Both the position numbers and the translations under genes were made by a program. The notes under the pieces were generated by a model, which searched no databases, was not told where the DNA came from, and saw only the letters and a program-made list of their open reading frames with translations. Below, in pieces: positions 17,049 to 43,628 of a DNA stretch of 51,314 bases (position 1 is the stretch's first letter; every line of letters begins with the position of its first letter). The stretch is from an uncultured Clostridia bacterium (lineage in GTDB: Bacteria; Bacillota; Clostridia; Christensenellales; UBA1242). The stretch covers positions 64,339 through 115,652 of the forward strand of contig CALWPG010000003.1 in NCBI GenBank assembly GCA_944383375.1, read 5' to 3'.

Positions 17049-17182
17049 AAAAAATTGCCTTGAAATGAAAATTTGATAAATTTTAGAGCAGGTATATTTC
17101 TATAATAAATATTTATGCTCAATTCGTTTGATAAAATTATAAAAAAAGTGTTAGAATAAATCGAAAAGTGTAGGAGATGTGT

Positions 17183-20100
17183 ATGAAAAAATTCACTCAT
17201 TACATATTGTCGATTTTTTGTATTCTAACAGCAGTAACATTTTTTGCGTGCAACGAACCAAAAAGTTTGAAATTTGAAAATAATTACATTGAAATGTCAA
17301 TCGGTGATGATTTTGACATTTCTTCTATTTTACAGGTGGAAAATATTGATAGGCAAGATGTGTCATACACAGTTTACGACAGTTCAATAATTTCTCTCGA
17401 GGGGACAACCATAACTGCACTTTCTGCGGGAAAAACTTTTGTCGAGGCAAGTTTTGAAAACAACGTTGCAAATCTTGAAGTAAATGTCATAGGCGAGAGC
17501 ATACAGGCGCCAACTGTAAATGGTCTTACTTACAACACTAATTCAAAGACAGTTGTTTGGGACAATGCACTTATCAAAACACAAAACTCCTTGCTTATAG
17601 CAAATTCATACACAGTAAAAATTGATGATGGAGAAAGCAGTGAAGAATTTGTCACATACACAAATTCATATGCCTTCAACACAAATGGTGAATATTCTAT
17701 TTCAGTGAAAGTCAATGATTTTATCTCAAATGGTCACATAGTCTACAAAGGTTCAGCATATTGCTCACCAATTGAGGTAGAGATTTTGCCAAGTCCAACT
17801 TCAGTTGTCTTTGATGATTTGACTTCAACACTATCGTGGTCATACGACAATACAGATGCTCAATTCAAGGTGATTGTCAACGGACTTGAAAGTGAGATAA
17901 TTTCTCAGACAAGTTACAAGCTCGACCTAACGGGACAAAACATAAATAGTCAAACAATCTATGATGTAAGTGTAGTAAGTACTAAACAAAATAGTGATGA
18001 TAAAATTTTAGTTGAAGGCTCAAGTGGAGTAAAAACTTATACAAGACTTTATGCGCCAACTCTTGAGATTCAAAACGGTATTGTGGTTTGGGATAATTCT
18101 CAAACTGGAAATTTCCATTACGAACTCACGTGGACTGACACCACTGGCAACAAAAATTCACAAACGGTTAGTGGTGGAAGTTTTGCACTTGATAACATTC
18201 CAGCGGGAGTATATTCCATTTCTATCAGCGCCATAAGTGACGATGAAGCTTTTCTTTCCAGCAAAAACACAAGTGAAATAACACAAGTTGAAAAACTTTC
18301 CATTCCAGTCATCAACTTTGATCCTGTAACTAGACAAATTTCAGTTGTTGATCACGAAGATAGAAATATAAAACTTGCCATTACTTTCGCAGGTCAAACT
18401 GAAAATGTCACACTTGTAGATGGGGTTTACACTTTTGACAAGACACAGGCTGGGCAATATCAAATTGTCGCATATCAAGAAGCTCGTGAAAATGAAAATA
18501 AATTGAACAGTGATGCTTCAACGCCTTTAAACATCATCCAACTTGCCGGTGTGGATTTAGCTAGTGTTATTCAAAAGGTTGAAAATGGAAAATATTATAT
18601 AGATTTTGACAGAGATGATGAAAATACTTATGCCTTGTCATACATTGATGGTGATCAAGAATTTGCCCTTAATCAATCACAGGATAAGTCCTATGCAGTT
18701 GTAGACGAAGTGTTTGATGAAGTCAAAGAGTATCCAATCGTCATCACCGAATCAAGAGATAACAGCACAGGAAATACTTACTATTTGCCTTCAAAGACCA
18801 CTGTGTATGTTGAACGTCAAGCAAATTTAACACTCAGTGGAAATCCACAGACCCAGCCTACAGTAATCAGCTGGCAAGTACTTGGGTATGCCAGCGAATA
18901 TGAGTATTACATCACAAAAAACGGCGAAAATTTTGCAAGTGGTACAACCAAACTTACAAATTTGGAACTTCCAACTTTGGAATATGGCAATTATATAGTA
19001 TACGTCAAAGCAAAAGGTGCAAATGTCGCTGGAAAATTGTATTTGGACAGCCTTTCATATGCGGAGCTAGCTTTTGATGTTGTTATGACACTGGATGCAC
19101 CTGTTGTAGAATTTGACAGAGAAACACATATCGTAACAATTCACAAAGTTGCAAATGCTACAAGTTATTATATTTCATTAAACGAAACACAAAAACAAGC
19201 ACAGGACAATGGCGAAACACTCACATTAAACTTGACAAATGAATTGTCTAATGCCGGATCGTATATCTTGAAAGTTTTGGCACAAAATGAAAATGCCTTA
19301 ATTTTAGACAGCAGTGAAAGTACTTTAAACATTGTAAAACTTCAAGCGCCTCAAACATATACAATTTCACCTAACGGGACGATAAGTGTGGAGATTAATG
19401 GAAATGAACAATACTTATCTCCATCAAGATATGAGATTTGGGTTGGTGAACAAATGACAAATCTCATAGGCCAAGAAAATGAATATGTTGTGAAAGGTAA
19501 ATTCGTATCCACCGATCAACAAGTTGAAAATACATATTATCTTGACAGTGATTTTACTGAGTTCACTGTAAAGAGATTGTCATCACCTTCAAACCTCGTG
19601 CTTAAAAACGTAAATCTCTCTTGGGATACTTGTGATAATGAGAATTTTGAATATTTGATTACCTTTACACAAGATGAACTTACGCAACTGTACACCACCA
19701 GTAGCAGCGACGTCAATGTGATGCAAGCGCTTATCGGTTCACATATAAATACTCACGAAGATTTTTATGCAAATGTCACATATTCTTTCAAAGGTCAAAG
19801 TTTTGATGTCGAAGAGAATTTAGTTGTCGATTACACCAGTCAGCCAAGTGAAGATGTATTAATTCATAGACTTTCTTCAGACATAAATGTATCTGTAACA
19901 GAAGATCAGGGACAGGTTACCATGAGTTGGGATCAAAGCGAAATAGATGGAACAATCTACGAAATAATGTTTGATTCCGACACCATTTCAAGACAAACTC
20001 AAAACTCTATAGACATCACACAATATGTTTCCACTCCGGGAGTACATAGTTTTATATTGCAAGCCTCATGTGACGGTTATGTGACTTCGGATTATATTAC

Positions 20101-23100
20101 AGTCCAAGTTGAAAGGCTTGAAAATGTTAGCCAAATCACCATTGATGAACAAGAAAACATATTGATAAACACAGATTATCAAGTGGGAACTGAGATTGAA
20201 AGTGTTCAAATTCAAGTTGATGGACAAGATGTCACAAATGTCAAGGGGCACGATGGCGAATTTACCGTTTACACAAAACTTATCGCTAACAAAAACACGC
20301 AAGATAATTATTTTTATTTAGATAGTGCCGTAAATTCATATATGTTTGAACGAGTACGTCCTCTTGCTGCTCCACTATTTAGCCAAGATGGCTTAATGTA
20401 CTGGGACAACATAAGCGGAATAAACACGTACATTTTAAAAATTTCAGCCGATACGGAACAGACATTGCAGTTACAACAATCCAGCATAGACATCAACGAC
20501 ACCACAATAAAAGACATTGTCAGCATTCTTGGTGGTTATGAATTTAATGTAAGCGTTATGGCATATGTAGGGCAGTTTAACATCTCAAATGGTGAAAAAC
20601 ACCTACTGTCATCTTCTTACAGTCAAAATTCGAAATTTTTCAAATTACAAGCACCAAATAGTGTCACAGTTTCACCTTATGATGAAGACTTTAGACAGCA
20701 AGTCATAAAGGCATCGTGGTCATATAATTCAACTGGTGTGAATTTAGGTGGTTTTGAAGTTGTAGTTCACTTGGAAGGTGTTCTTACTCCAAATACATTG
20801 ACAGTTGCAGCCGATTCAACCTCTGCTCAGATAAACTTTGCTCAAGGTTCTGGAAAATATACACTTTACGTCACAGCAAAAGGTACATCCAATTATATGG
20901 ATAGCGATGCGTCTGATGCAGTTTCTTTTACAAGATTGGATGCTCCAACCAACAAGAGCATTGATCAAAATGCAGTACTAAATTTCACCGGCACAAATTT
21001 GGCAGAGGGTTATGTTATTACATACACAAACAATGGTGCCGTTTCAGGAAGAGTTGATAGCGACAACACCACAGTTGACTTAAAAAGCTATCTATACAGC
21101 AGTGCATTTTCTGGTGAAATTTACATAAATGTTTATGCCACCGGAAATGGGGCAACCACATTTACCAGCGCTTTTGAGGAAACACTCATTGCCACCAAGG
21201 CGCCAGCAGGTGAAATACAATTGTTTGTGGACAAACTTGTTGCTGGTGGAAGCATACAAGATGCGCACTCATATGAATACAACATAACCATCACTCAAAA
21301 CAATAGAGTTGTAAAACAACTTGAATTAAATTATGCCGATGAATATGTGTTTGAAGATTTTGTTTACCAAGATAATGGACAAAGTGTTGACACAACGAAG
21401 GATACAGATTATGTCATCACGATCACAAGGTCTTTAAACGGAAATAACTATATTACTTCAGACCAAGTGACATACAATTTCACAAAACTAGCAAGTGTGC
21501 AAAATCTTGGTTTTGTCAGAGAAAACGAAAGTTTTGACTCCATAATCTCTTTCAGGGCAGATGCAGTTTCAAACGCATCTGGTTATGTTTTGGCAATTGC
21601 AGACCATGTCATAACAGACTTTATTTATGATAATGGATACATAAAAGTTGATCTAGACAATCAAGTATATCCATACATAGATTCAAACTTTACATTCCAG
21701 ATCTATGCTCAGGGCATTATAGACAAAACCGGCAGTGGAACAAATTACATCAACAGTTCAACCACACAAATAAGTGGTACAAAACTTTCTCCAGTTACCA
21801 ATTTCAAAACGGTAAATGGTGTACTTACTTGGGACAAAGTTGACCTCGCCTATGATTATGCCATAAAGGATGACACGTATCTTTATACAGGTTATGTCAC
21901 AAATGGGGTTCACACAACGCAAGAAAGTTTGACAGGAAGAAGTGGTGCACTTAGTTTAAATATCAAGGCAGTCGGAAATGTTGGCACAACACTTTTGACT
22001 TCAAATATCGTATTGGATTCAACATATATTTTGGATGAATACAATAATTTACTCAATTACGAATGCACGAAATTGGAAAAGGTCTCTTCACTTGCAGCGA
22101 CAAGTGGCTATATATCTTTCGCCAAACTTGCGGATGAAAATGTAATTTACCAAGCTGTGACAAACAGTGGTGGACCGTTTGAACTAAGTGAAGAAGTTAT
22201 TGATGACACACTTCAAGACATTTCAACATTCTATAGTGATGAAATGTATAACTCACTTGCGACAGACACAATATACACACTGAGAATTGTTGCCACTTCA
22301 AACCAAGAAGATATCATCTACAGTGATCCAAGTGATGCAATTGAAATACGCATACTAAACAGCAATATTTCCAACCTTAGAGTTGAACTAAAACAACTCA
22401 GGACAGACCCAGATGGAACAATAGTGTATGACTACACCCAAAGCAGTTTGAAATGGGATAATCCAAATAGTGGAAACTACAGTTATGCCATCGACATCAA
22501 CGGAAATGCAATAATAGAAACGAATACTGAATTTTTGCTTACAAACAATGAAAAATATCAGTTTGGAGTAGGATCGTATGTTGTGCGTGTGGCTGTGATA
22601 GGCATTTCTGATGATCAAAGCAATGTGTATTCTCTCATTTCAAAATTCTCTCCATCAATTATCTTCACAAAACTTGCCTCTCCAACACCATCAATCAGTG
22701 AGGGACTGTTGGCCTGGACAAGTGTGGCTGGTGCAGGAGGATATATAATTCGCTTGTATCAAAATGGAGATATTCAATTCCAAAGTGATGTGATAAATTC
22801 AGCAAGTTATTTCCTAGATATGAGTGGCTCAAGCAATATCACTTATGACAGATATGATGTGATTGCAGTTCCGTATGCAAACACAAACTTTATTGCAAGT
22901 GATGCTGCCACGTATGTTGATGATGAAGCAAACGCAAAGCCTGTTGTAAAACTCAGCCCAACTGACATGCTCACGGTCCAAAATGGTGCACTAACTTGGA
23001 ATGTTGATTGGGGATGGGAGGACATAGGCATATACCTTGACTTACTTGCAGAAGAAGATGTCGAAGAGCCATTTACACTAAGCATGGCTAGTTTACAAAA

Positions 23101-26100
23101 CCTTAGTGACAGAATTACACTTAGGTTTGAAGGAGTAGGCGGGAGCTATACATTCGTCGACACAGCAGCAGCATATTGCCTGCTTTCTGATGACATGAAA
23201 AATCTGGTTGGATCGGTGGCCCCTGGTTTAGAACCACTTTTAACTAGCCTTGAATTTTATGGCTGGCCATCGCTCAATAACAATTCTACAGACTTTGGTT
23301 CAGCAATGAATGCCGGATACTATAGCCTATATGTAAATCAGGTAGGTGACAGCAATAAATACCTTACATCAAATTACGGATCTGGGATGCAAGTTTACAT
23401 TCCATACGCACCAGTTGTCAAACTGGTATACACTAACAGCAGTTATGAACTTCAATGGGATAGAATAACCATTCCAAGTCAGTATTATGATCAAGCTGTC
23501 AGATACATCGTCTATGGCCTACAACAAGTAACTAACGAAGATGGCGAAACTATTACAAAAAGAGTTATGCTTACAAGCGAAGACGGAATAACAGACACAT
23601 ATTTCAATTTGTCAAATCTTATTGAAAATGATACATTAGATAGCAGTTTCACCGGTTTTGCCGTCTATGTAAGGGGAGATAACTCTGTTGTTTTAAACGG
23701 AAAGGTCTCAAACATAATCAATGTTGAAATCTTAGATGACACCAAGGCATACGTAAGAAATGGTGAACTGTATTGGAATTCTCAACAAAGTGCGACATCT
23801 TATATTGTATATTACACCGAAAGCACAAATCCAGATAATCCACCAAAATCCGTTGTACTAACACAAGCACATTGGGATGCGCAAGAACTAGATAGCAATA
23901 TTCCATATTACAATATTTCCATCCAAGCGATAGGAGATGGTGCATCTTCAACAATAGCAGTGCTCACCGGCAAAAATACCCCTGTTGGAAAACTATCCAA
24001 ACTTCCATCTCCAAATCCTGAGGTGACAAATGGCGTGTTTAGATGGCAGCAGGTGGACAACAGCACTTCCTATAATGTCAACGTGACTGGTGAGATCAAT
24101 GAAGTAGTGGCTATTGCAAATTCAACTGATAGCGAAAATTATATCTACTATCAAAGCAACTTCCCACAACAAAATCTTGGCTATGGAATGGTTGCAGTAG
24201 GTGACTTAAACGTTGACCTAAGCATTGACGGCGACATAGCATATGTCAATTCAGCTCCAAGTCAAACCATATATGCAACGCTTATTCCAACAGTTCAAAA
24301 TGTAAGCGCGATAAATGGACAGCTTAGTTGGGATAAGGTTATAAACAGTAATGTGGTTGTGTCAAATTACAAATTGACATTGCAAAAAGTAAATGATGAG
24401 GGTACACCACTTGATAGTGAAATCATAGTAGAGAGCAACTATTCGGGACCAAACAACACTGGAGTGTTCGATTGTGCGATACTTGAAGCGGGCAGGTATA
24501 CTGTTGTGGTTCAAGGCTATTTCGAAACTACTTCAAGTGCCGGTGATGATTCTGGAAGATATATCTACAATGGACAAACTGCATACTATTTAATGGGACT
24601 TATGAGTCAACAATATACCTTTGAAAAATTTGATACCGTGATAGGCTATGACGAAACAGGCCTTGTTGATAACATAGTCATCCATGATGGGGTGCTATCA
24701 TGGCAGTACGCAGGAGATAACGACGAGAGCATCTATGAATATGAATTGAGGTTTACAACTCCAAATGAGACATTTAGTGTAAGAATTGAAGATGAAAGTT
24801 ACTCTGGACACATTGTTGACCAGCTCATCGTTCCTGGCTCAATTGAGTTAGAGATCAGAGTGGTTGCAAAACAAGGCGTAGCTGGTCAAGGCTATGTCAA
24901 CTCTGACTACAAAAAGTTCATTAATATCCATCACGATAGTTCTCCATATATCTATCAATTGGACGGACTTTCAGAACATGACATCATTCTTGGCAGAGTT
25001 GGAGATAGTGAGGACTTGCACATTTTGTGGCAAGACTACATTCCATCTGTAAATGGGCTTGCGGCAGACATAAATGTCCAATATTTGGTAACCTATTACA
25101 CAAGTTTGGATCCAACAGAGCATTCAATAGTTGTGGATACACAGTACATAAGCACAGCAGAGTTTAATTTCTCAATAGGTGATGAATATACATTATATTA
25201 CTACATTACTGTGCTTCCAATTGGCAACCAAAGTTATGTTGCTTCCTATCCATCCGAGGTAAGAGCAATTCAAAAACCTGAGTCGGTCAGTGAGGTCACA
25301 TACAACTCCACAGAAAAATACTTTACATGGGCTACCGATGGCACATCACAAGACCATGTATTCAAAATCAAGGACGAAGTACTTGCTGTCAATGAAAACG
25401 GCGAGATAATATATGAAAACGGGCAACCTGTTGTGGTTAGAACATACATCTTCACAACCGATAGTAACACCACAAACATATACTATCCTGTTGAAATGGG
25501 TGCACACAAGGTATCTGTGGCCGTGGTGGTAAGAAACAGTGGCATGGATGGCAGTTTGACCTCAGACTACACCTATTATTACGATAGGATAAATGAGCCT
25601 GAAAACCAAAATGTGGGTACAATTGTACTTGTGGATTTGTTCAAAGTGACTTCAGTGTCACAAGATGTTTATGGTGGCATGGGCACTTCGGAAAATCCAT
25701 ACTTAATTGAAACCACTCAACATTTTGCAAATATTTCCTACAGACTAAGCAAACCTGATTATCAAAATAGTTATACTCTTACCATAGGGGATGTGGATAC
25801 CGCGGTTACACTAAGCGGAGAAGATTTGTATTTACACTTTAAACAAGTGGCAGATCTAAACGATGTGGCTCCTCTTGGAAATGGAGTGGTCACAGAATTT
25901 TCTGGCATATATGATGGTGATATGCATTCCATCTCGTGGAATTTTGACCTTGGAAACATCTCAACTGCACAAAATACAAGGCAATACGTTGCATTGTTCG
26001 GAAGAGTTGGTGAAAACGCAGCCATAAGCAATTTAAGGGTCTATGTGACATTGCAAGGGCAGACGATAACAGGATCCACAGTTTCACTTCTTTGTTATGA

Positions 26101-26935
26101 AAACTATGGAACAATAAATAACATTGTCCTTGGCGCTGTCAATAGTACAATCCAAATAGAGACTTTGCACAACATCAGTGTGTATGGTATTGCGTATACC
26201 AACGATGGAGATATATCCTCTGTGGCAAATTATTACAATGTTGATCTAAGAAATACCACAAGTTCCGTAGGAACATTTGCTAACTTCGCACTTGTTGGTA
26301 CAAATAGAGGCAGTGTGGTATGTGCTGCAAACTATGGCGATGTGTCTTTGGTTACAACTCGTACCAATAGTGCGGGAATTGTTGCAACAAATAATGGTAC
26401 TGTGCAAAGGTCGGTGTTCAGTGGAGACGCAACACTTAGTATGGCGAAAGATAGTAGATCTGATATAAACTTTATGTTTGGTGGAATTGTGGCAGCCAAC
26501 ACTTCTGGTACCATATCCTATACGTATACTCAATCCAACTTCAACATTTCACGAAGTGCTCAAAGTTTAAATACATACATATATATTGCTGGGCTTGTAG
26601 CTTCTTCCAACAACGGAAACATCTCTTCGTCATATGTCAATGTCAATATCTCAGCGACCTCAACTATAGGACAAATTGACTATATTGCAACATTCGTTGC
26701 AAACATAAGTTCTGTATCAAATCCTACCACCACAGAGACAACAACTAACTTCTCTAATCAGTCCACGTACTCTAGTGTGCTTGGATTGGGTGCTTCCAAC
26801 TTTGCAGTTGCTCAGTACACAACTGTTCCATCAGGACTTAGATTAAACGCAGATCAAGCTTACTTTACCAACAACGAAAATGACTTCCCAGTTCTAAGAT
26901 GGGAGTCTGAGTTTAACAGTCTATGGCAATTGTGA
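17183..26935 (+). CDS. Giant surface lipoprotein with ~28 Fn3-like repeats and GLUG-like C-terminus
   Basis: About 3,250 residues (around 355 kDa). A signal peptide with a lipobox (TFFAC, Cys at about 23) predicts a lipid-anchored surface protein. Residues ~30-105 are a Big2-like Ig domain (SLEGTTITALSAGKTFVEAS). Then, to about residue 2,825, roughly 28 units of 80-100 residues repeat the pattern (T/E)KL..P....NG.L.W....... Y.......G, ending in SS or DS turns before the next KL..P; this is Fn3-like. The C-terminal ~420 residues start GMGTSENPYLIETTQHFANI and continue as GLUG-like repeats (GIVATNNGT, GGIVAANTSGT, AGLVASSNNGN), a fold linked to adhesion and beta-helices. I chose the ATG at 17183 because AGGAG abuts the ATG at 17177. 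Likely an adhesin or surface-binding protein; the ligand is unknown. Monocistronic. Confidence 0.92.
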   Translation: MKKFTHYILSIFCILTAVTFFACNEPKSLKFENNYIEMSIGDDFDISSILQVENIDRQDVSYTVYDSSIISLEGTTITALSAGKTFVEASFENNVANLEVNVIGESIQAPTVNGLTYNTNSKTVVWDNALIKTQNSLLIANSYTVKIDDGESSEEFVTYTNSYAFNTNGEYSISVKVNDFISNGHIVYKGSAYCSPIEVEILPSPTSVVFDDLTSTLSWSYDNTDAQFKVIVNGLESEIISQTSYKLDLTGQNINSQTIYDVSVVSTKQNSDDKILVEGSSGVKTYTRLYAPTLEIQNGIVVWDNSQTGNFHYELTWTDTTGNKNSQTVSGGSFALDNIPAGVYSISISAISDDEAFLSSKNTSEITQVEKLSIPVINFDPVTRQISVVDHEDRNIKLAITFAGQTENVTLVDGVYTFDKTQAGQYQIVAYQEARENENKLNSDASTPLNIIQLAGVDLASVIQKVENGKYYIDFDRDDENTYALSYIDGDQEFALNQSQDKSYAVVDEVFDEVKEYPIVITESRDNSTGNTYYLPSKTTVYVERQANLTLSGNPQTQPTVISWQVLGYASEYEYYITKNGENFASGTTKLTNLELPTLEYGNYIVYVKAKGANVAGKLYLDSLSYAELAFDVVMTLDAPVVEFDRETHIVTIHKVANATSYYISLNETQKQAQDNGETLTLNLTNELSNAGSYILKVLAQNENALILDSSESTLNIVKLQAPQTYTISPNGTISVEINGNEQYLSPSRYEIWVGEQMTNLIGQENEYVVKGKFVSTDQQVENTYYLDSDFTEFTVKRLSSPSNLVLKNVNLSWDTCDNENFEYLITFTQDELTQLYTTSSSDVNVMQALIGSHINTHEDFYANVTYSFKGQSFDVEENLVVDYTSQPSEDVLIHRLSSDINVSVTEDQGQVTMSWDQSEIDGTIYEIMFDSDTISRQTQNSIDITQYVSTPGVHSFILQASCDGYVTSDYITVQVERLENVSQITIDEQENILINTDYQVGTEIESVQIQVDGQDVTNVKGHDGEFTVYTKLIANKNTQDNYFYLDSAVNSYMFERVRPLAAPLFSQDGLMYWDNISGINTYILKISADTEQTLQLQQSSIDINDTTIKDIVSILGGYEFNVSVMAYVGQFNISNGEKHLLSSSYSQNSKFFKLQAPNSVTVSPYDEDFRQQVIKASWSYNSTGVNLGGFEVVVHLEGVLTPNTLTVAADSTSAQINFAQGSGKYTLYVTAKGTSNYMDSDASDAVSFTRLDAPTNKSIDQNAVLNFTGTNLAEGYVITYTNNGAVSGRVDSDNTTVDLKSYLYSSAFSGEIYINVYATGNGATTFTSAFEETLIATKAPAGEIQLFVDKLVAGGSIQDAHSYEYNITITQNNRVVKQLELNYADEYVFEDFVYQDNGQSVDTTKDTDYVITITRSLNGNNYITSDQVTYNFTKLASVQNLGFVRENESFDSIISFRADAVSNASGYVLAIADHVITDFIYDNGYIKVDLDNQVYPYIDSNFTFQIYAQGIIDKTGSGTNYINSSTTQISGTKLSPVTNFKTVNGVLTWDKVDLAYDYAIKDDTYLYTGYVTNGVHTTQESLTGRSGALSLNIKAVGNVGTTLLTSNIVLDSTYILDEYNNLLNYECTKLEKVSSLAATSGYISFAKLADENVIYQAVTNSGGPFELSEEVIDDTLQDISTFYSDEMYNSLATDTIYTLRIVATSNQEDIIYSDPSDAIEIRILNSNISNLRVELKQLRTDPDGTIVYDYTQSSLKWDNPNSGNYSYAIDINGNAIIETNTEFLLTNNEKYQFGVGSYVVRVAVIGISDDQSNVYSLISKFSPSIIFTKLASPTPSISEGLLAWTSVAGAGGYIIRLYQNGDIQFQSDVINSASYFLDMSGSSNITYDRYDVIAVPYANTNFIASDAATYVDDEANAKPVVKLSPTDMLTVQNGALTWNVDWGWEDIGIYLDLLAEEDVEEPFTLSMASLQNLSDRITLRFEGVGGSYTFVDTAAAYCLLSDDMKNLVGSVAPGLEPLLTSLEFYGWPSLNNNSTDFGSAMNAGYYSLYVNQVGDSNKYLTSNYGSGMQVYIPYAPVVKLVYTNSSYELQWDRITIPSQYYDQAVRYIVYGLQQVTNEDGETITKRVMLTSEDGITDTYFNLSNLIENDTLDSSFTGFAVYVRGDNSVVLNGKVSNIINVEILDDTKAYVRNGELYWNSQQSATSYIVYYTESTNPDNPPKSVVLTQAHWDAQELDSNIPYYNISIQAIGDGASSTIAVLTGKNTPVGKLSKLPSPNPEVTNGVFRWQQVDNSTSYNVNVTGEINEVVAIANSTDSENYIYYQSNFPQQNLGYGMVAVGDLNVDLSIDGDIAYVNSAPSQTIYATLIPTVQNVSAINGQLSWDKVINSNVVVSNYKLTLQKVNDEGTPLDSEIIVESNYSGPNNTGVFDCAILEAGRYTVVVQGYFETTSSAGDDSGRYIYNGQTAYYLMGLMSQQYTFEKFDTVIGYDETGLVDNIVIHDGVLSWQYAGDNDESIYEYELRFTTPNETFSVRIEDESYSGHIVDQLIVPGSIELEIRVVAKQGVAGQGYVNSDYKKFINIHHDSSPYIYQLDGLSEHDIILGRVGDSEDLHILWQDYIPSVNGLAADINVQYLVTYYTSLDPTEHSIVVDTQYISTAEFNFSIGDEYTLYYYITVLPIGNQSYVASYPSEVRAIQKPESVSEVTYNSTEKYFTWATDGTSQDHVFKIKDEVLAVNENGEIIYENGQPVVVRTYIFTTDSNTTNIYYPVEMGAHKVSVAVVVRNSGMDGSLTSDYTYYYDRINEPENQNVGTIVLVDLFKVTSVSQDVYGGMGTSENPYLIETTQHFANISYRLSKPDYQNSYTLTIGDVDTAVTLSGEDLYLHFKQVADLNDVAPLGNGVVTEFSGIYDGDMHSISWNFDLGNISTAQNTRQYVALFGRVGENAAISNLRVYVTLQGQTITGSTVSLLCYENYGTINNIVLGAVNSTIQIETLHNISVYGIAYTNDGDISSVANYYNVDLRNTTSSVGTFANFALVGTNRGSVVCAANYGDVSLVTTRTNSAGIVATNNGTVQRSVFSGDATLSMAKDSRSDINFMFGGIVAANTSGTISYTYTQSNFNISRSAQSLNTYIYIAGLVASSNNGNISSSYVNVNISATSTIGQIDYIATFVANISSVSNPTTTETTTNFSNQSTYSSVLGLGASNFAVAQYTTVPSGLRLNADQAYFTNNENDFPVLRWESEFNSLWQL

Positions 26936-35458: not shown

Positions 35459-37789
35459 ATGCTGGTTTGGTATTACGTAATCACAATAGCACTTGCCGCA
35501 ATATTGTGTGTCACATATTTTTTTTGTCGAAAAAAATTAAGTAAAAAAACAGATTTGGTTTTAAAAATAATCTCACTTGTTTTAGCCGCAATTTTTTTCG
35601 TTAGATATCTTTGGGATAATGAGGCCATCCAGTGGATAAACAAACTTGATACAACATTGTTTAGTAATGCCTTTTACACATTCATGTCCGCTTTTAGCAT
35701 TTGGCTGATGTACATACCACTTCTACTTTTGATTTTATATCCATTTTTCAAGATCAAATACATGAACTTCTTTGTAAAATGGATAGCATCTCCAATTATA
35801 GTTTTAAATTTGATTACACTGAGTTTAACCATAACTGGTGTGTGTGGGCAAGTGGCTAATGAAGTGTTCTCAGTTCGAGCACTTTTAATGTGTGTGGAAC
35901 TTGCGATAAGCGTGGCATACTGTTTTTATGTTTGGCAAAGCGACCCATCACCCAAGTGGACGAAAAAAGATATTTATGTATTTTTGGCAAGTTTATTTGC
36001 AATGCTCATAGCCACAATGCCAGCCTATATGCCTCAACTTGTGGTGGGTACACTCAATGAGAGCATAGTTATAGACGATTTGACTCTATATCACAGAATA
36101 TTTTTATACTTTTCAATCATAATTCCAGTTGCAATATATTTTGCACTAAGAAAAAATGACAATGAGACGAATCGTTTTGCACTTTTGTTTTTGAGCCTTG
36201 GTGGGCTAATAACTTTTATGGCAGGTGCAAGATTTGAATCATGGCTTGATCCAGCACAGTGGCCAATTCACCTTTGCAATACAGCGATGTATATCATTCC
36301 AATTTGTTTGATATTCAAATGGGAAAAATTATTTTACTTTACATTCTTTATCAATGTTCTTGGCGCATTCTTGGCCATGGTCATGCCAAACACAACTGAA
36401 AACATAACAAGTTATGCCTCAATTAGATTTTGGAACAACCACTACATGGCATTTTTCATGCCACTACTAATGGTTGCGCTCAAGGTATACAAACGTCCAA
36501 AACTTAGGCAGTTTATATATTCCTGTGTCGCGTTTACCATATACTTTGTTTTGGTTGTATTTTTAAATTCTTGGTTCACGGGACTTGGAAAAGATGTTGA
36601 CTTTTTCTTTGTAAACAGTGACTTTATTGCTGAAAAACTTGGGCAGTGGGCTGAAGACCTTCGAGATTACAATTTTGTCTTTACTTTAGGGGGAGTTCAG
36701 TTTGTAATATATCCACTGTATCAGTTTTTATTTTGGCTCGTATATATGTTCTTATCGGCAGGAATGTGGTTTTTGTATGAGCAGTCATATAACTACTTTG
36801 ACCTTATGGTGGATATGTCACATAGACGAAAAAAATATAAACTTGAAATGCTTGCACTTGAAAGTAAACTAAACTCAAAGGAGATAACACAGCCAATGAA
36901 TGAAGAAAATAAAGACAAACTTATTTTAAGAAATTTTACAAAGCGTTACGGAAAAAGTGAAGTGTACGCAGTAAAAGATGTAAATTTAGAGGTCCATGGT
37001 GGCGAGATATTTGGGTTCTTGGGGCCAAATGGTGCTGGCAAAAGTACAATAATAAAAACAATTGTTGGAATTCAACCCATAACCAGTGGTGAAATTGAGG
37101 TGTGTGGCTATGATGCCAAACTTCAAGGCACAATGGCGAAAAGACAGATAGGTTTTGTTCCCGATCACTATGCCCTTTATGAAAAATTGACGGGAAGAGA
37201 ATATATTAATTACATCGCAGACCTTTACGAGGTGAGTAAAGAGGAGAGGGATGAAAGGATAGAAAAATATGTATCTCTTTTTGAACTTACAGGTGCTTTT
37301 GATAATCAAATAAAAACATATTCACATGGTATGAAACAAAAGATAGCCATAATGGCAGCACTTGTCCATAACCCAAAGGTTTGGATACTTGACGAACCGC
37401 TTACTGGACTGGATCCTAACAGTATCTTTCAAGTTAAAGAATGTATGAAAAATCATGCAAAGGAAGGCAACATCGTGTTCTTTTCAAGCCACATCATTGA
37501 TGTTGTTGAGCGTATTTGTGACAGAATTGGTATTATAAAAAAAGGACAACTTCAAGTTGTGAAAAAAGTACAGGACATCATAGATAGTGGCGAGCCACTT
37601 GAAGACTTCTATATGAACATAATAAACAATAATAATGTTGAAGCAATTAAAGTTGATGCAGAAGAACTCAAAAAAGACAAACTAGAACTAGAAAAAGACA
37701 AGAAGCACCAAAAAGAGTTGAGAAAACTAGAACGCGAGCAAAAAAGAAATTTAAGAAAAATGAAAAAAGAACAAAAGACAAAGGAGTAA
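35459..37789 (+). CDS. Fusion of YwaF-like membrane domain and ABC-transporter ATPase
   Basis: 776 residues. Residues ~1-455 contain about 12 hydrophobic helices; the block [19 protein letters not shown] (~280) and the layout match the YwaF/TIGR02206 integral-membrane family. Residues ~480-700 are a complete ABC ATPase of the ABC-2 export group: [15 protein letters not shown] (Walker A), [13 protein letters not shown] at the Q-loop, [10 protein letters not shown] (signature), [13 protein letters not shown] (Walker B), FFSSHIIDV (switch His). A Lys/Glu-rich coiled tail ends the protein. An in-frame ATG at 36896, with AAAGGAG 12 nt upstream, lies just before the ATPase and could yield a free subunit. 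The start at 35459 has ACGGAG upstream. The permease gene follows after 1 nt, so this is an exporter module. Substrate unknown. Confidence 0.85.
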
Positions 37790-37790
37790 T

Positions 37791-39440
37791 ATGAACGCAT
37801 TAAAAACGCTTGTTTTCATGCAGTTAAAAGACAAAGTAGATTTTGGATTTTTGAGAACAAAAAAGGCACTCATATCCAAGGTTATTTTGACGCTACTTTC
37901 TTTTATTGCAATCACAGCTGTTTATTATTTTGGTTTTTATTTGTGCCGTTTGCTTGGTATATTTTCACTTGTTAACATTATTCCGACAAGTGTCATTGTT
38001 GTGTTGTTCAGCATTATGGAAATTTTGTCTATAATATCTTGCACATACTCACTAATGAAAAACTTGTATTTTGCTCGTGACAATCAGGTGCTTTTGACTT
38101 TTCCTGTTACAGTTGATCAAATATTTTTCTCAAAACTTATAGTTTTTTATATCTATGAACTCAGGCGCACAATATTTTTCATTTTTCCAATGTTTTTTGC
38201 GTTTGGGCTTATCAGTGGATATTCTGTTGTGTTTTTCTTGTGGCTTTTACCTTGTATGTTTATTGTTGCACTAATTCCAGTGTCAATTGGCGCACTTTTG
38301 TCCATTGTTGCAATGCTTGTCGCTATCGTGCTTAGAAATTACTCTTTAATTAGATGGGTGATTTTTTTGGCACTTATTGGACTTGGCATATATGTGTTTT
38401 TGCTTTTTGTGTCACTAATACCCGAAAACCTCGATATCGTTGCAAGTTGGGGGACCATATTTTGGGACATTCAGGACTTTTTGGGCAGTTACACAAAGTA
38501 TATGGCACCATTCACTTATCTCACACAGTTTATTGTTGGAACACATTTTGGACTTTCGCAAAACTTATTTACTCTTGATACACTCTGGATTTTACTAACA
38601 ATTGTTGCAATGGTGGCTGTGCTTTTGGGGGCAAGTTATTTAATATGTAAGCCGTTATTTTTGAGAATGACCAGTTCTCCTTTTGAATATAAAAGAAAAA
38701 TTATTAAGAAAACATACAAAAATGGCTTTTTAAAGGCGTTTTATAGCGCAGTGCATAAAGACGATTTGGTGATTTTTAGAACAAGCGATGAAGTTTATAG
38801 CCTTTTTGGGGTGGCAATATGTATGCCACTTGCGATACTTCTTTTGAATACCATTTTTGCCGCAATGAGTACAAGACTTCTTGGTGACAATATGGCAATT
38901 TCATTTAACCTTTTAATAATTCTTTTATTTGCAATGGCAACAAACAATAAAGTGGCAAGTATATATTCGCGTGAGGCACAGGCAGGATATCTGGTCAAGA
39001 CAAGACCGAATGGTCATAACTCAAATTTGACTGCGAAACTTGTAACATATGCAATTATAACGTCAATTTCAATAGTCGCATCAGTTTGCGTATTTGCGTC
39101 ATTTAATAGTATGAGTATTCTAAACGTTATCTTATTTGGTATGAGTGCAATTTTAATATATCTAATACACATGTTTTGGAGTGCAGAAATGGATATAATG
39201 AATCCACAAAATATTCAGTATTCCACAACTGGAAGCCATGTAAATAACCCAAACGAAACAAAGTCTACAATAGCAATGGTGTTTTTAGCAGCAGTGTTTT
39301 TTGCAATTTCACTGTTCTTACTTATGGAAAATTCACAAATCGCATGGGTTAAAGTTTTGTTTGTTGCATTGGCATATTTTGCTTATAGAGTTTGGTCATT
39401 TTATAGCAAAATTAAATATTATTATGAGGAAAAAGGATGA
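37791..39440 (+). CDS. ABC exporter permease (ABC-2-like)
   Basis: 549 residues with roughly 12 hydrophobic segments and almost no soluble domain. It matches the large putative ABC-exporter permeases of Firmicutes: an N-terminal LKDKVDFGFLRTKKALISK, YFARDNQVLLTFPVTVDQIFFSKL (about 94-117) as a cytoplasmic coupling-like segment, a second such region DDLVIFRTSDEVYSLFGVA, and IYSREAQAGYLVKTRPNG. It is coupled to the preceding ATPase gene (1-nt gap, AAGGAG before the ATG), so the two form one transporter, likely for a lipid-like or peptide substrate; this is inferred. The next gene overlaps its stop by 4 nt. Confidence 0.82.
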   Translation: MNALKTLVFMQLKDKVDFGFLRTKKALISKVILTLLSFIAITAVYYFGFYLCRLLGIFSLVNIIPTSVIVVLFSIMEILSIISCTYSLMKNLYFARDNQVLLTFPVTVDQIFFSKLIVFYIYELRRTIFFIFPMFFAFGLISGYSVVFFLWLLPCMFIVALIPVSIGALLSIVAMLVAIVLRNYSLIRWVIFLALIGLGIYVFLLFVSLIPENLDIVASWGTIFWDIQDFLGSYTKYMAPFTYLTQFIVGTHFGLSQNLFTLDTLWILLTIVAMVAVLLGASYLICKPLFLRMTSSPFEYKRKIIKKTYKNGFLKAFYSAVHKDDLVIFRTSDEVYSLFGVAICMPLAILLLNTIFAAMSTRLLGDNMAISFNLLIILLFAMATNNKVASIYSREAQAGYLVKTRPNGHNSNLTAKLVTYAIITSISIVASVCVFASFNSMSILNVILFGMSAILIYLIHMFWSAEMDIMNPQNIQYSTTGSHVNNPNETKSTIAMVFLAAVFFAISLFLLMENSQIAWVKVLFVALAYFAYRVWSFYSKIKYYYEEKG

Positions 39441-39883
39441 AAAAATCTATTGTTATTCTTATTGGTGTGGTTTATATAATGTCTATTATAGTAATAGGCT
39501 TTTTTGGTATGAAGATAACATCATATAACACAACCGTGTACCCAGATGAAATTGAGATTTTAAGTGTTGAGTGTGAAGATGAAGAAAGGGTAAGTATTAA
39601 AGAAGCCAACCTCAATATACCAGGAACTGGAGTTTGTAAGTACATAATAACTTATGACTTTCAAGAAGGGAAAGACAATGTTTTTTCTCTTGTTTATAGA
39701 GTTTACCCAGACACAACAAGCGACAAGGGTGTGAATTTTGGCTATGATAAACAAACTGCACCAATATCTGAGATAGATGAGAAAAATAATTTTTGGATAA
39801 AAAATAGAGGTGGAGCAGTGGTCAAAATTTCTGCCGTTTCTCGTCCAACTGTGGAAGTTATGTTCTATTTATCTATAATTTAA
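39437..39883 (+). CDS. Membrane-anchored accessory protein of the ABC module
   Basis: 148 residues. A single N-terminal hydrophobic segment (about 4-24, SIVILIGVVYIMSIIVIGFF) is followed by a beta-rich extracellular part (NTTVYPDEIEILSVECED, YIITYDFQEGKDNVFSL) that ends hydrophobic. No family recognised; it resembles a small Ig-like fold. It overlaps the permease stop by 4 nt (ATGA), showing translational coupling, so it is probably an accessory or sensing partner of the transporter. Confidence 0.75.
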   Translation: MKKSIVILIGVVYIMSIIVIGFFGMKITSYNTTVYPDEIEILSVECEDEERVSIKEANLNIPGTGVCKYIITYDFQEGKDNVFSLVYRVYPDTTSDKGVNFGYDKQTAPISEIDEKNNFWIKNRGGAVVKISAVSRPTVEVMFYLSII

Positions 39884-39904
39884 TTATATGATGCATAAAA
39901 ACAT

Positions 39905-39933
39905 TTGATATTACAAACAGTAAAATGTATAAT
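39905..39933 (+). promoter_or_regulatory. Promoter of the second lipoprotein
   Basis: TTGATA (39905-39910), a 17-nt spacer and TATAAT (39928-39933). A leader of about 24 nt carries AAAGGAG (39952-39958) before the ATG at 39964. Confidence 0.75.
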
Positions 39934-39963
39934 AACCATGGAATATTTTGTAAAGGAGAAAAT

Positions 39964-42084
39964 ATGAAAAAGTTTATTAGTCTTATTAGTGCTGTAATGT
40001 GCGTGATGGTCTTTGGAATAATTTTGACTGCTTGTGGTGAAAAGCCTGTTGAAATAGCAGTTAAAGACGACACTCTTGACACGCAATTAGACATTGGTGA
40101 AAATTTGGTTCTTGATGACCTTGTTTTGCTTGTGACTTACAGCAATGACAAAGTCAAAGAAGTCAAATACAATGACGAAATGCAGTTTGCTTGCTCGGAC
40201 AATACACCACTCGATGAGATAGCAAATGAAGCGGGGGAAAAGCAAGTTATAATTAAATATCTTGGACTTCAAACCGAAGTTACAATAACGGTAACAGAAA
40301 GCCAACATGTTCCAACAGTTGAGTATGAAGTGCAAAGTTTTGGTTTGCCAACATTTATTACTGACTTCGAAAATAATGCAAAAGCATTTAATATTCGTGA
40401 CAATACTTATAAAGTTGGAGACGATAACTCGTTTGAACTTAAACCAATAATTATGGGTGTTGAAATAGTTGATGGTGTACGTGGAGAAATTCAAGCTCTT
40501 GACTATGTGCCAGCAACTTACAAAGTTGAACAAAAAATTGACGGCGAGTATGTTGAGCTTACAGGAGATGAATTAACTGAGGCAGTTACAATCGATCAAC
40601 AAAAGTTTGGTTTTGATTTCGCTGATAAAGCTGTAGGAAATACATATAGAATAACAGTTACTGCACAAACTATTAGTGGAGATGTGAGCATATCTCACGA
40701 GCTTGAAGTTGTTGATGGCTTTAACATTCAGTCAAAAGAGATGCTTTCAGTGATGGACAATAATCCAACAACACAAAAATATTGGGCAGACCTTAAAGCA
40801 CAAAACAATGTGCCTCAAGTTGACACCAACTCAGTCGTCATTCACGGCAGTTATGAATTGTCTGATTCTGATGTTCCACAGGCATACTACTATAAAGAAG
40901 GTGACAGTGATTATGTCCCTGAACTAGCAAACACAATGAGAAACTGGAAGACAATTTATCATATTTCTGTTGACCAAGACGAAACATACAAAATCTATGG
41001 TAATTACAATACAATAGATGCAAGTGCAATCGCTCTTACCAATCTTGATTACTTAAACACAAATAAAATTGATAATGAAAAATTTGGACATGCCTCATTA
41101 TTCTCATTCGGTATTGCAAACAATAACCATCCAACAAACCAAAATCAAGGTAGCGTTGTTATGGATAGCCTTAACTTAATTGGCAACACAAATCGTGACG
41201 AGTCAGAAGCTTTAAGAGGCGGACTTTTAATGGTTCTTACTGGTTCAAAAGATGTGACGCTAAACAATGTCAATGGTAACAGTTGGGTTACAATGCTTGT
41301 TTCAACAACTGAAGGCAGTGATTGGGAAACGGCATCAACACACATTTCAAATTGCAAGTTTACTGATAGTTATAGCCTTATGATAAACTATTGGGGTATA
41401 AAAAATAACTACATTGAAGACAGCATTCTCTCTGGCTCTGGCGGTCCAGTTGTGTTCTTGACACATCTTGACCCTAAGGATACACCAAACTCAAATTACG
41501 CAAATGTTGAAGTTATCAATTCAACAGTTGAAACCACTGTTTCGGGCGAAGAAGCGTGGTTCGGTTTAAATGATGCTACTCCAGTGGCTACTGAACTTAA
41601 AAAATCAAATCAATTATTTTTGGGTACAAGTCAAGCTCTTAAAGATAATAGTCTTTTACCAAGCGTAAGGTCGCTACTTGATAATGACGGGTTATTGAAC
41701 GCTGCATTTGTATTTGTTTCAAACGGTAATCCAGTTTTAAATAGCAATCCAGTAAAAGGGAAAGTGACAATAAAGAACGAAGCTGGTGAGGTAACTTTTG
41801 TTCATGACATGGAAGATCAGACATTTAAGGCAACAACATCTGCACCTGCACTTGCTCCATATCTTGCAAATTTACCATTCTTTAATGCTGGTGGACAACT
41901 CTATACAACACATTTGACTAATCAAACACCTGATGGCTTTGGTAGAGATCCAATTACTGCTTTGGACTTAACAAATATGGAAGAGATACAAAAAATGGTC
42001 CAATTCTTGTCCGATGAGTATGTAGGTATATTTGTAAATGGCATACCAACAATGGGCGCTGTGGTCGAATACTTTAGTTTATAA
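39964..42084 (+). CDS. Surface lipoprotein with Ig-like N-terminal domain
   Basis: 706 residues from the ATG at 39964 (AAAGGAG 5 nt upstream); the longer in-frame form would start inside the promoter region. Signal peptide with a lipobox ILTAC (Cys at about 24). Residues ~30-115 form a bacterial Ig-like domain ending in LQTEVTITVTES. Then come a second beta domain (residues ~120-255) and a long region with WKTIYHISVDQDETYKIYG and VVMDSLNLIGNTNRDESEAL, whose strand-turn repeats (LNNVNGNSWVTMLVSTTE, HISNCKFTDSYS, VEVINSTVETTV) suggest a right-handed beta-helix, as in pectate-lyase-like surface proteins. No catalytic residues identified. Ligand unknown. Confidence 0.85.
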   Translation: MKKFISLISAVMCVMVFGIILTACGEKPVEIAVKDDTLDTQLDIGENLVLDDLVLLVTYSNDKVKEVKYNDEMQFACSDNTPLDEIANEAGEKQVIIKYLGLQTEVTITVTESQHVPTVEYEVQSFGLPTFITDFENNAKAFNIRDNTYKVGDDNSFELKPIIMGVEIVDGVRGEIQALDYVPATYKVEQKIDGEYVELTGDELTEAVTIDQQKFGFDFADKAVGNTYRITVTAQTISGDVSISHELEVVDGFNIQSKEMLSVMDNNPTTQKYWADLKAQNNVPQVDTNSVVIHGSYELSDSDVPQAYYYKEGDSDYVPELANTMRNWKTIYHISVDQDETYKIYGNYNTIDASAIALTNLDYLNTNKIDNEKFGHASLFSFGIANNNHPTNQNQGSVVMDSLNLIGNTNRDESEALRGGLLMVLTGSKDVTLNNVNGNSWVTMLVSTTEGSDWETASTHISNCKFTDSYSLMINYWGIKNNYIEDSILSGSGGPVVFLTHLDPKDTPNSNYANVEVINSTVETTVSGEEAWFGLNDATPVATELKKSNQLFLGTSQALKDNSLLPSVRSLLDNDGLLNAAFVFVSNGNPVLNSNPVKGKVTIKNEAGEVTFVHDMEDQTFKATTSAPALAPYLANLPFFNAGGQLYTTHLTNQTPDGFGRDPITALDLTNMEEIQKMVQFLSDEYVGIFVNGIPTMGAVVEYFSL

Positions 42085-42098
42085 TACGAATAATTTTA

Positions 42099-42128
42099 AA
42101 AAACTGTAGGTTATCCTACGGTTTTTTT
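42099..42128 (+). terminator. Terminator of the second lipoprotein gene
   Basis: AAACTGTAGG / CCTACGGTTT stem with loop TTAT, followed by a T-run. Confidence 0.85.
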
Positions 42129-42200
42129 ATGCAAAAAATTTTGACAAAATTAAATGATAGAATAGAAGTTGTTTAATTACTAAAATAAAAAAGTGACATA

Positions 42201-43628
42201 TTGCATACAATAAAACAAGTGAAAAGGTTAAAAACTGGCACAAAAATTTGTTATGCAGTTGGGAATTTGGGTTATGGTGTTGTTTCGCAAGCCATGACAA
42301 CTTTTATGATGTTTTTTGGGACCAGCGTGCTTGGTATTCGTGGTTCACTTGTGGGGCTTTGTGTTGCACTTTCGGCGTTTTGGGACGGGCTTAGTGACCC
42401 CATTGTCGGATATCTTAGCGACATAACTCGCTCAAAATTTTGGGGTAGAAGACATGGCTATCTTTTTTTTGGTACGCTTGGAATTGTGATTTTTAATATA
42501 CTTCTTTGGAGTGTGCCAAGTGGTATGGGCGAAGTGGCTAAATTTTTTTGGCTTCTTATTATGCTACTTGCCTTAGAAACTGCAAACACATGCTTTGCAA
42601 CACCATATGTCGCCCTTGGAATTGACATAGCACCGGGATACAATGAACAAAGCACTCTCCAGGGTTACAAAACGGTATTTTTTATCTTGGGCATGGTGCT
42701 TCCAAGTGTGCTTATGATGATATTCATGCCAGGTGGTGAGCAAGGTCAGCTTTCGCAAAGCGGATATATTTACATCGCATACACAACATCAATTTTGGCT
42801 CTGATATGTGGACTCATCACTGTTTTTGGAACTTTCAAAAAGGCAAAAGCAGTCCACACAGAAAGTTCAAGAAAAAAAGAAAAAAATGCATTTTTTAAGA
42901 TATTTTACAACTTTTTTTTGGTGCTTAAAAAACGAAATTATGGTGCAATAATATTGTCATATTCTGTAGCGCTTATCTCCACGGCATTTTTGACTTCAGT
43001 TGGTATGCACATTTTTACTTATTGTTTCCATTTTAACTCAACTCAAATTCCAATTATAATGTCAGCCTTATTTTTGGGCGCAATACTAAGTCAGCCATTT
43101 TGGATTTATCTTTCGCGAAGAATTGACAAAAAGCCCACACTCAGATGGTCATATTTTGTCATCTTGGTGGGAATTTTTTTGACATTTTGGGTATTTGTAT
43201 TTCGTGAGAGCATTGGTACTGACATTTGTTTTTATGTTGTGCTTTTGTGCATATTTGTCTGTGGTTTTGGCTCTGGAGCACTTTATAGCTTACCAATGAG
43301 TATGTTTGCCGACAATGTCACAATGGATAAATTGAAAACAGGTGAAAACAAGAGCGCCACATATTCCGGTTACATGACTTTTGCTTACAATGTCGCAAAC
43401 TCACTTGCTTTGTTTGTGATTGGAATTCTACTTGACCTAATCAAATTTGATGCTTCTCAGCCAGTTCAGGCACTTAAAGTTCAAAACTACCTAGGGCTTA
43501 TTGTTTTTGGTGGCTGTGCAGTTTCAATTGCAATTGCCATGATGATTATTTCAAGATACAACTTAAAGCGAAGTGACATATTAAAACAACAATTACTGGC
43601 AAAACAAAAGGATAAAAACAAAAAATAA
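42201..43628 (+). CDS. GPH/MFS-type sugar:cation symporter
   Basis: About 475 residues with 12 predicted helices. The glycoside-pentoside-hexuronide (MelB-like) family fits: TGTKICYAVGNLGYGVVSQ at the N-terminus, FWDGLSDPIVGYLSDITRSKFWGRRHGY (residues ~61-88, with the conserved D..S DP and R/GRR loop) and a cytoplasmic middle loop. The sugar cannot be predicted and no glycosidase is nearby. The start is uncertain: TTG at 42201 is the longest frame; GTG at 42219 (KRLKTG onward) gives a more typical N-terminus, with TACAAT 7 nt upstream. No Shine-Dalgarno is visible for either. A TTGACA lies at 42141. Confidence 0.85.
   Translation: MHTIKQVKRLKTGTKICYAVGNLGYGVVSQAMTTFMMFFGTSVLGIRGSLVGLCVALSAFWDGLSDPIVGYLSDITRSKFWGRRHGYLFFGTLGIVIFNILLWSVPSGMGEVAKFFWLLIMLLALETANTCFATPYVALGIDIAPGYNEQSTLQGYKTVFFILGMVLPSVLMMIFMPGGEQGQLSQSGYIYIAYTTSILALICGLITVFGTFKKAKAVHTESSRKKEKNAFFKIFYNFFLVLKKRNYGAIILSYSVALISTAFLTSVGMHIFTYCFHFNSTQIPIIMSALFLGAILSQPFWIYLSRRIDKKPTLRWSYFVILVGIFLTFWVFVFRESIGTDICFYVVLLCIFVCGFGSGALYSLPMSMFADNVTMDKLKTGENKSATYSGYMTFAYNVANSLALFVIGILLDLIKFDASQPVQALKVQNYLGLIVFGGCAVSIAIAMMIISRYNLKRSDILKQQLLAKQKDKNKK

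Follow-up and report, generated by a model that had tools for sequence, protein, structure and literature searches.

The window analyzed here, a stretch of 51,314 nucleotides from an uncultured Clostridia bacterium whose genome measures 0.99 Mb (99% complete), encodes a 776-residue protein that joins a polytopic membrane region to an ATP-binding cassette (ABC) ATPase with a charged tail. Fusion residues 215–394 match the TMEM164 family of Pfam (PF14808) with 73.4 bits against a cut-off of 25, which places this part of the protein in that family, and residues 505–648 match ABC_tran (PF00005, Pfam) with 100.6 bits. The fusion gene is followed by genes for a permease, a small anchored protein and a surface lipoprotein. 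We interpret this four-gene system, with a probability of about 0.5, as an envelope ABC transporter with a built-in acyltransferase of the TMEM164/YwaF (ATGY) type, which would act at the outer leaflet of the membrane.

A preliminary description of this locus had proposed a YwaF-type membrane part joined in one frame to a complete ABC ATPase, and this architecture holds, with PF14808 and PF00005 found in the same protein. The open reading frame (ORF) coordinates and the close gene coupling given there are also borne out: the fusion and the permease ORF are separated by 1 bp, and the permease and small protein genes overlap by 4 bp. The single YwaF/TIGR02206 domain of ~455 residues was right as to its YwaF type but not as to its extent: PF14808 spans the second half only, and residues 1–205 (domain A) have no significant family match.

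Architecture of the fusion protein

The AlphaFold2 (AF2) model of the fusion, with a mean predicted local distance difference test (pLDDT) score of 88, contains two six-helix units (residues 2–196 and 210–375) with an identical order of helices. A seventh transmembrane (TM) helix, TM7 (residues 419–470), continues into the ATPase. A first hhalign comparison of domains A and B gave no match. After the alignment was widened, the two domains aligned over their full length and in register with P 0.003, although the HH probability was only 10%; in the controls, unrelated pairs gave P 0.1–0.7 and two permease halves P 0.019. The P-x-H-L-C-N motif and a later histidine are found in the second unit only. 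Judging from the modeled helix order and this alignment, domain A is likely a degenerate second copy generated by tandem duplication. The ratio of nonsynonymous to synonymous substitution rates (dN/dS), estimable for some pairs only because synonymous sites elsewhere are near saturation, is 0.04–0.07 for domain B and 0.11–0.21 for domain A (window versus loci L010 and L011), pointing to a stronger selective constraint on domain B; the corresponding value for the ATPase part is 0.026 (window versus L013).

Domain B carries a conserved cysteine and a conserved histidine, as expected of a TMEM164-type cysteine-dependent acyltransferase, and a catalytic role is predicted for both. Cys273 is kept in 72/72 aligned homologues, in 37/37 further fused members and in all 26 unfused members having that column, and His328 in 72/72, 38/38 and 26/26, respectively. 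Among 13 divergent proteins, no other column is fully invariant, and the pair remains invariant down to 16–26% identity across fused, split and stand-alone members. The combined fraction of lysine and arginine is 0.19–0.38 in loops assigned to the cytosol versus 0.02–0.07 in loops assigned to the outside; on the basis of this positive-inside pattern, Cys273, His328 and His212/Arg213 are placed at the outer side of the membrane. A sequence search of the PDB with domain B found nothing. When the whole fusion was used in a PDB fold search, the matches were taken up by ATPase domains, and a fold search against a viral library returned ABC and other ATPases. PHROGs gave zero matches for the fusion, the permease, the small protein or the lipoprotein.

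The ATPase contains a Walker A motif, the signature SHGMKQK, the Walker B sequence WILDEP and the H-loop SSH, all invariant among homologues; with these four ABC motifs in place, it is complete. Its fold matches EcsA in PDB entry 9a6w (VIA-align Z 31.6, 1.7 Å over 240 residues), followed by ABCA4 (Z 31.1) and NosF (Z 28.5), and its sequence resembles that of ABCA3 (E 5e-59). The charged C-terminal helix is variable and not conserved among homologues.

Table 1. Features of the fusion gene and of the three genes downstream, in window coordinates.
Feature	Position	Strand	Basis
Fusion: tandem TMEM164-like membrane region, ABC ATPase, charged tail	35459..37789	+	776-aa ORF; PF14808 and PF00005
Domain A, residues 1–205: six predicted TM helices, probably a degenerate TMEM164-fold copy without the Cys/His pair	35459..36073	+	AF2 helix order, hhalign
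Domain B, residues 210–460: TMEM164/YwaF-type (6 TM), with TM7 into the cytosolic ATPase	36086..36838	+	PF14808, TIGR02206 (sub-cut-off), AF2
Cys273 codon, predicted catalytic cysteine, motif P-x-H-L-C-N	36275..36277	+	invariance
His328 codon, predicted catalytic histidine	36440..36442	+	invariance
ABC nucleotide-binding domain, residues 486–726	36914..37636	+	PF00005, motifs, fold match
Charged C-terminal helix, residues 734–775	37658..37783	+	AF2 helix
ABC permease, 549 aa, PF16949-like	37791..39440	+	PF16949 profile, position beside the fusion
Small protein, 148 aa: one N-terminal TM helix and an extracellular segment	39437..39883	+	hydropathy
Surface lipoprotein: lipobox LTAC, Ig-like domains, right-handed beta-helix	39964..42084	+	lipobox, AF2, fold matches
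aa, amino acids; Ig, immunoglobulin.

Distribution and composition of the gene set

The preliminary description had proposed, as a check, a survey of how often the fusion and its gene order recur. One genome per species was scanned, and 80 of the 119 confirmed loci were kept; these encode fusion relatives with 42–86% identity, most of them matching residues 1 to about 740. Within the family, about 80 of 197 genomes have a near-full-length fusion match; across the order, the fusion is patchy yet present in many families, and across the class it is rare. Both the membrane part and the ATPase are kept in all 72 aligned homologues. Among loci with enough flanking sequence, a permease homologue follows the fusion in 74/74, usually with a 4-bp overlap or within a few bases; 63/71 loci also have the small protein and 62/66 the lipoprotein. 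Of the four that show no lipoprotein match, three belong to distant Bacilli (L083–L085) and were missed by BLAST: they encode a diverged small protein (160–164 aa) and a lipoprotein (851–910 aa) in unchanged gene order. Flanking genes, such as tlyA and a major facilitator superfamily gene, are kept in close relatives only, and the conserved unit therefore consists of the fusion, the permease, the small protein and the lipoprotein. The unit of three genes proposed earlier had missed the last of these. Because the fusion recurs, in frame and strongly constrained, across many genomes that were assembled independently, it is not unique to this contig. That a frameshift or an assembly join created it has a negligible probability, and no point in favor of such an artefact was found.

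The permease scores 22.8 bits against PF16949 (ABC_tran_2), under the cut-off of 25.7; PF16949 is matched by 31 of 44 permease homologues (E up to 0.01, best E 1e-12) and is the sole recurrent family match. The presence of this dedicated permease at every informative locus bears on another suggestion of the preliminary description, namely that the membrane region serves the ATPase as a second permease. Being polytopic and fused to the ATPase, the region might be expected to do so. Profile comparison of domains A and B with the ABC permease, however, revealed no likeness (P 0.1–0.7), and the match is to PF14808 instead, which makes a second permease highly improbable.

Of 51 systems without a TMEM164 domain, 38 have a first large protein downstream of the permease that matches the profile of the small protein. 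The small protein thus appears, from these profile matches, to be a stand-alone form of the anchor module that opens the large surface proteins of related systems. Systems of this kind appear to carry anchor and surface region on a single polypeptide; in the system described here, the two are divided between the small protein and the lipoprotein.

The start of the lipoprotein was moved from 39925 to 39964 because the methionine there is invariant and a GGAG ribosome site precedes the ATG; Met14 and the lipobox Cys37 (ORF numbering) are invariant in 32 homologues. The AF2 model (pLDDT 88.9) comprises Ig-like domains (residues ~38–264) and a right-handed beta-helix (residues 261–719), the latter matching AlgE4, a phage depolymerase and other beta-helix proteins with Z 10–14.7. 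The host genome contains lgt, and diacylglyceryl lipoproteins can therefore be made in this host. From the 3′ end of the fusion to the lipoprotein (window 37500–42300), the DNA is mostly 95–100% identical to that of loci L008 and L009, and the flanks are 66–84% identical; this near-identical 4.8-kb segment looks like the product of a recent homologous exchange between related species. Elsewhere in the window, a 3252-aa ORF (17177–26935) has no Pfam match at E 0.001.

Split and unfused forms of the system were also found. Loci L105, L108, L120 and L131 encode the membrane region on its own, as a protein of 472–493 aa; the adjacent ATPase is 51–57% identical to the fused one and is followed by a permease of the same family, an anchor protein of ~300 aa and a lipoprotein. 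These split versions show that the membrane region is a genuine subunit. In a distant permease clade, a single-domain TMEM164-type gene encoding the Cys and His lies at the operon end (L235:2186-3076, L239:7646-8503, L240:14054-14923). The TMEM164-type domain and this type of transporter are linked in three recurring arrangements. The operons of the distant clade encode a related ABC type with a TM-anchored surface protein of 1367–1704 aa. Stand-alone tandem TMEM164-type proteins exist elsewhere; in two different families (L132:4286-6881 and L134:4167-6618), the gene for such a protein is directly followed by an Acyl_transf_3 gene. Three single-domain TMEM164-family genes lie close together on contig C1 of the 1-Mb genome G000 (117042–119831, L139), which has seven TMEM164-family matches over the cut-off in all.

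Function of the TMEM164-type domain

TMEM164 has been described as a cysteine-dependent acyltransferase (PMC13276253), with lysophospholipids as the substrates of the human protein (PMC13276253, PMC12345273). In B. subtilis, its superfamily relative LhaT transfers acyl groups to lipoproteins at the outer face of the membrane (PMC12345273). The present NCBIfam name of TIGR02206 is TMEM164-related integral membrane acyltransferase. Of the three roles suggested in the preliminary description (sensor, second permease or lipid-handling module), we infer that the last is now to be favored, because PF14808 and TIGR02206 represent a TMEM164-related acyltransferase family and the Cys/His pair is invariant here.

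In the proposed mechanism, two fusion chains would supply both ATPase sites for the 549-aa permease, a presumed stoichiometry. Through Cys273 and His328, domain B would most likely form an acyl thioester, with a lipid of the outer leaflet as the donor, and transfer the chain to an acceptor that the transporter presents; this acceptor would be the lipoprotein of the same operon or a lipid that the permease moves. Domain A would be a non-catalytic structural copy, and the small TM protein would serve as an anchor, probably docking the surface part onto the permease. In favor of this mechanism are the PF14808 score far above the cut-off, the invariant pair and its placement at the outer side, the stronger constraint on domain B, the split loci, the Acyl_transf_3 neighbors of two stand-alone copies, the single-domain genes in the operons of the distant permease clade and, by counts, the association with lipoproteins. 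A more specific version is an ATP-driven lipoprotein-finishing machine of monoderms, in which transporter and acyltransferase would form one complex, acylating the surface lipoprotein of its own system at the outer leaflet and spending ATP on loading, placing or releasing it; we consider this version doubtful.

A different acceptor is envisaged if the system is a lipid-remodeling flippase, whose permease moves a lysolipid or another lipid acceptor outward for re-acylation by domain B, with the lipoprotein as an accessory. The activity of human TMEM164 on lysophospholipids fits this alternative, as does the similarity of the ATPase to ABCA lipid transporters in both sequence (ABCA3) and fold (ABCA4); ABC ATPases are, however, alike across substrates, and this similarity is no proof of a lipid substrate. 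Lipoproteins also remain where the domain was lost (L109, L144 and L145), yet the fused clade keeps its lipoprotein gene almost without exception. On balance, the flippase is an appreciable, though minor, possibility.

A sensor or regulator, in which the TMEM164-type domain would use its former active site for non-catalytic lipid binding and thereby gate the ATPase, is unlikely. One long helix, TM7, joins the domain directly to the ATPase, which would suit gating, and the domain is an added part, since related ABC systems work without it. Binding alone would nevertheless not predict that exactly the cysteine and the histidine are invariant in fused, split and stand-alone members.

Several observations weigh against the interpretation as a transporter with a built-in acyltransferase. 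When the membrane part alone was searched, TIGR02206 matched residues 215–373 with 67.4 bits, below the NCBIfam cut-off of 75, and the fusion is therefore not assigned to TIGR02206 itself. By counts, the association of the domain with lipoproteins is strong: among 113 systems, 54/57 with the domain (fused or split) have a lipoprotein as their large surface protein, versus 5/56 without it. The domain changes state only twice on the permease tree, however, leaving two independent pairs; this is a quick tree without a mixture model, in which long branches meet at L119 and L193. The association with lipoproteins is therefore not independent evidence and reflects essentially one clade. Some systems have a lipoprotein but no such domain (L109, L144, L145, L163 and L164), and the divergent fused systems L119 and L193 have no lipobox. 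PcrB (PF01884), which the LhaT pathway requires for its donor, is absent from the host genome, while a control search finds it in B. subtilis; a LhaT-type acetyl-heptaprenylglyceryl donor is thereby ruled out for this genome. Finally, whereas the fusion, its family, the invariant Cys/His pair, the predicted topology, the conserved gene set and the split forms are observations, catalysis, the acyl donor and acceptor, the direction of transport and the coupling of ATP to acyl transfer are inferred.

Functions for TMEM164/LhaT-superfamily acyltransferases are a recent finding, and most bacterial members of the YwaF type are without one. A widespread natural fusion to an ABC ATPase that also occurs in split form and keeps a lipoprotein as its fixed partner offers a concrete handle on the targets of YwaF-type domains. 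If the enzyme is active, the motor of this ABC transporter and a lipid-modifying site would share one chain, and the system would be relevant to the tailoring of surface lipids or lipoproteins in monoderm Clostridia.

Comparison with known systems

A literature search that covered few subscription papers found no published account of this fusion or gene set and no counterpart among characterized transporters, in agreement with what had been stated before for this architecture. Like the present system, the NosDFY copper-site ABC transporter combines an ATPase of this fold and a permease with a beta-helix protein outside the cytoplasm, all encoded in one operon. NosD is this beta-helix protein; it is not among the listed fold matches of the lipoprotein, and we know of no acyltransferase-like domain in Nos systems. 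EcsAB of Bacillus, which works with RasP, provides the closest solved ATPase fold (EcsA). The permease here is PF16949-like, and the EcsB family is not among the recurrent matches of the 44 permease homologues; to our knowledge, the ecs operon includes neither a fusion nor a lipoprotein. Matches to M50 peptidases, which bear on the comparison with EcsAB–RasP, are present in the host genome.

LhaT (YpjA, DUF1405), the lipoprotein N-acetyltransferase of B. subtilis, has the superfamily in common with domain B (PMC12345273), and the system described here includes a lipoprotein. LhaT itself is not tied to an ABC transporter, and comparison of the fusion with Pfam at E up to 0.01 gave no DUF1405 match.

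The PF16949-type ABC systems have a homologous ATPase (44–57% identity), a homologous permease and the same order of ATPase, permease and large Ig-like surface protein. Their ATPase is without the TMEM164 domain, and their surface protein usually has its own N-terminal TM anchor in place of a lipobox. With the TMEM164/YwaF family (PF14808, TIGR02206; ATGY superfamily), the fusion has in common a Pfam match over the cut-off, the six-TM unit and the invariant Cys and His. It differs in that a second six-TM unit precedes this one, an ABC ATPase is fused to it and the TIGR02206 score lies below the cut-off. Both halves of the protein come from known families; what appears to be new is their fusion and the gene set around it.

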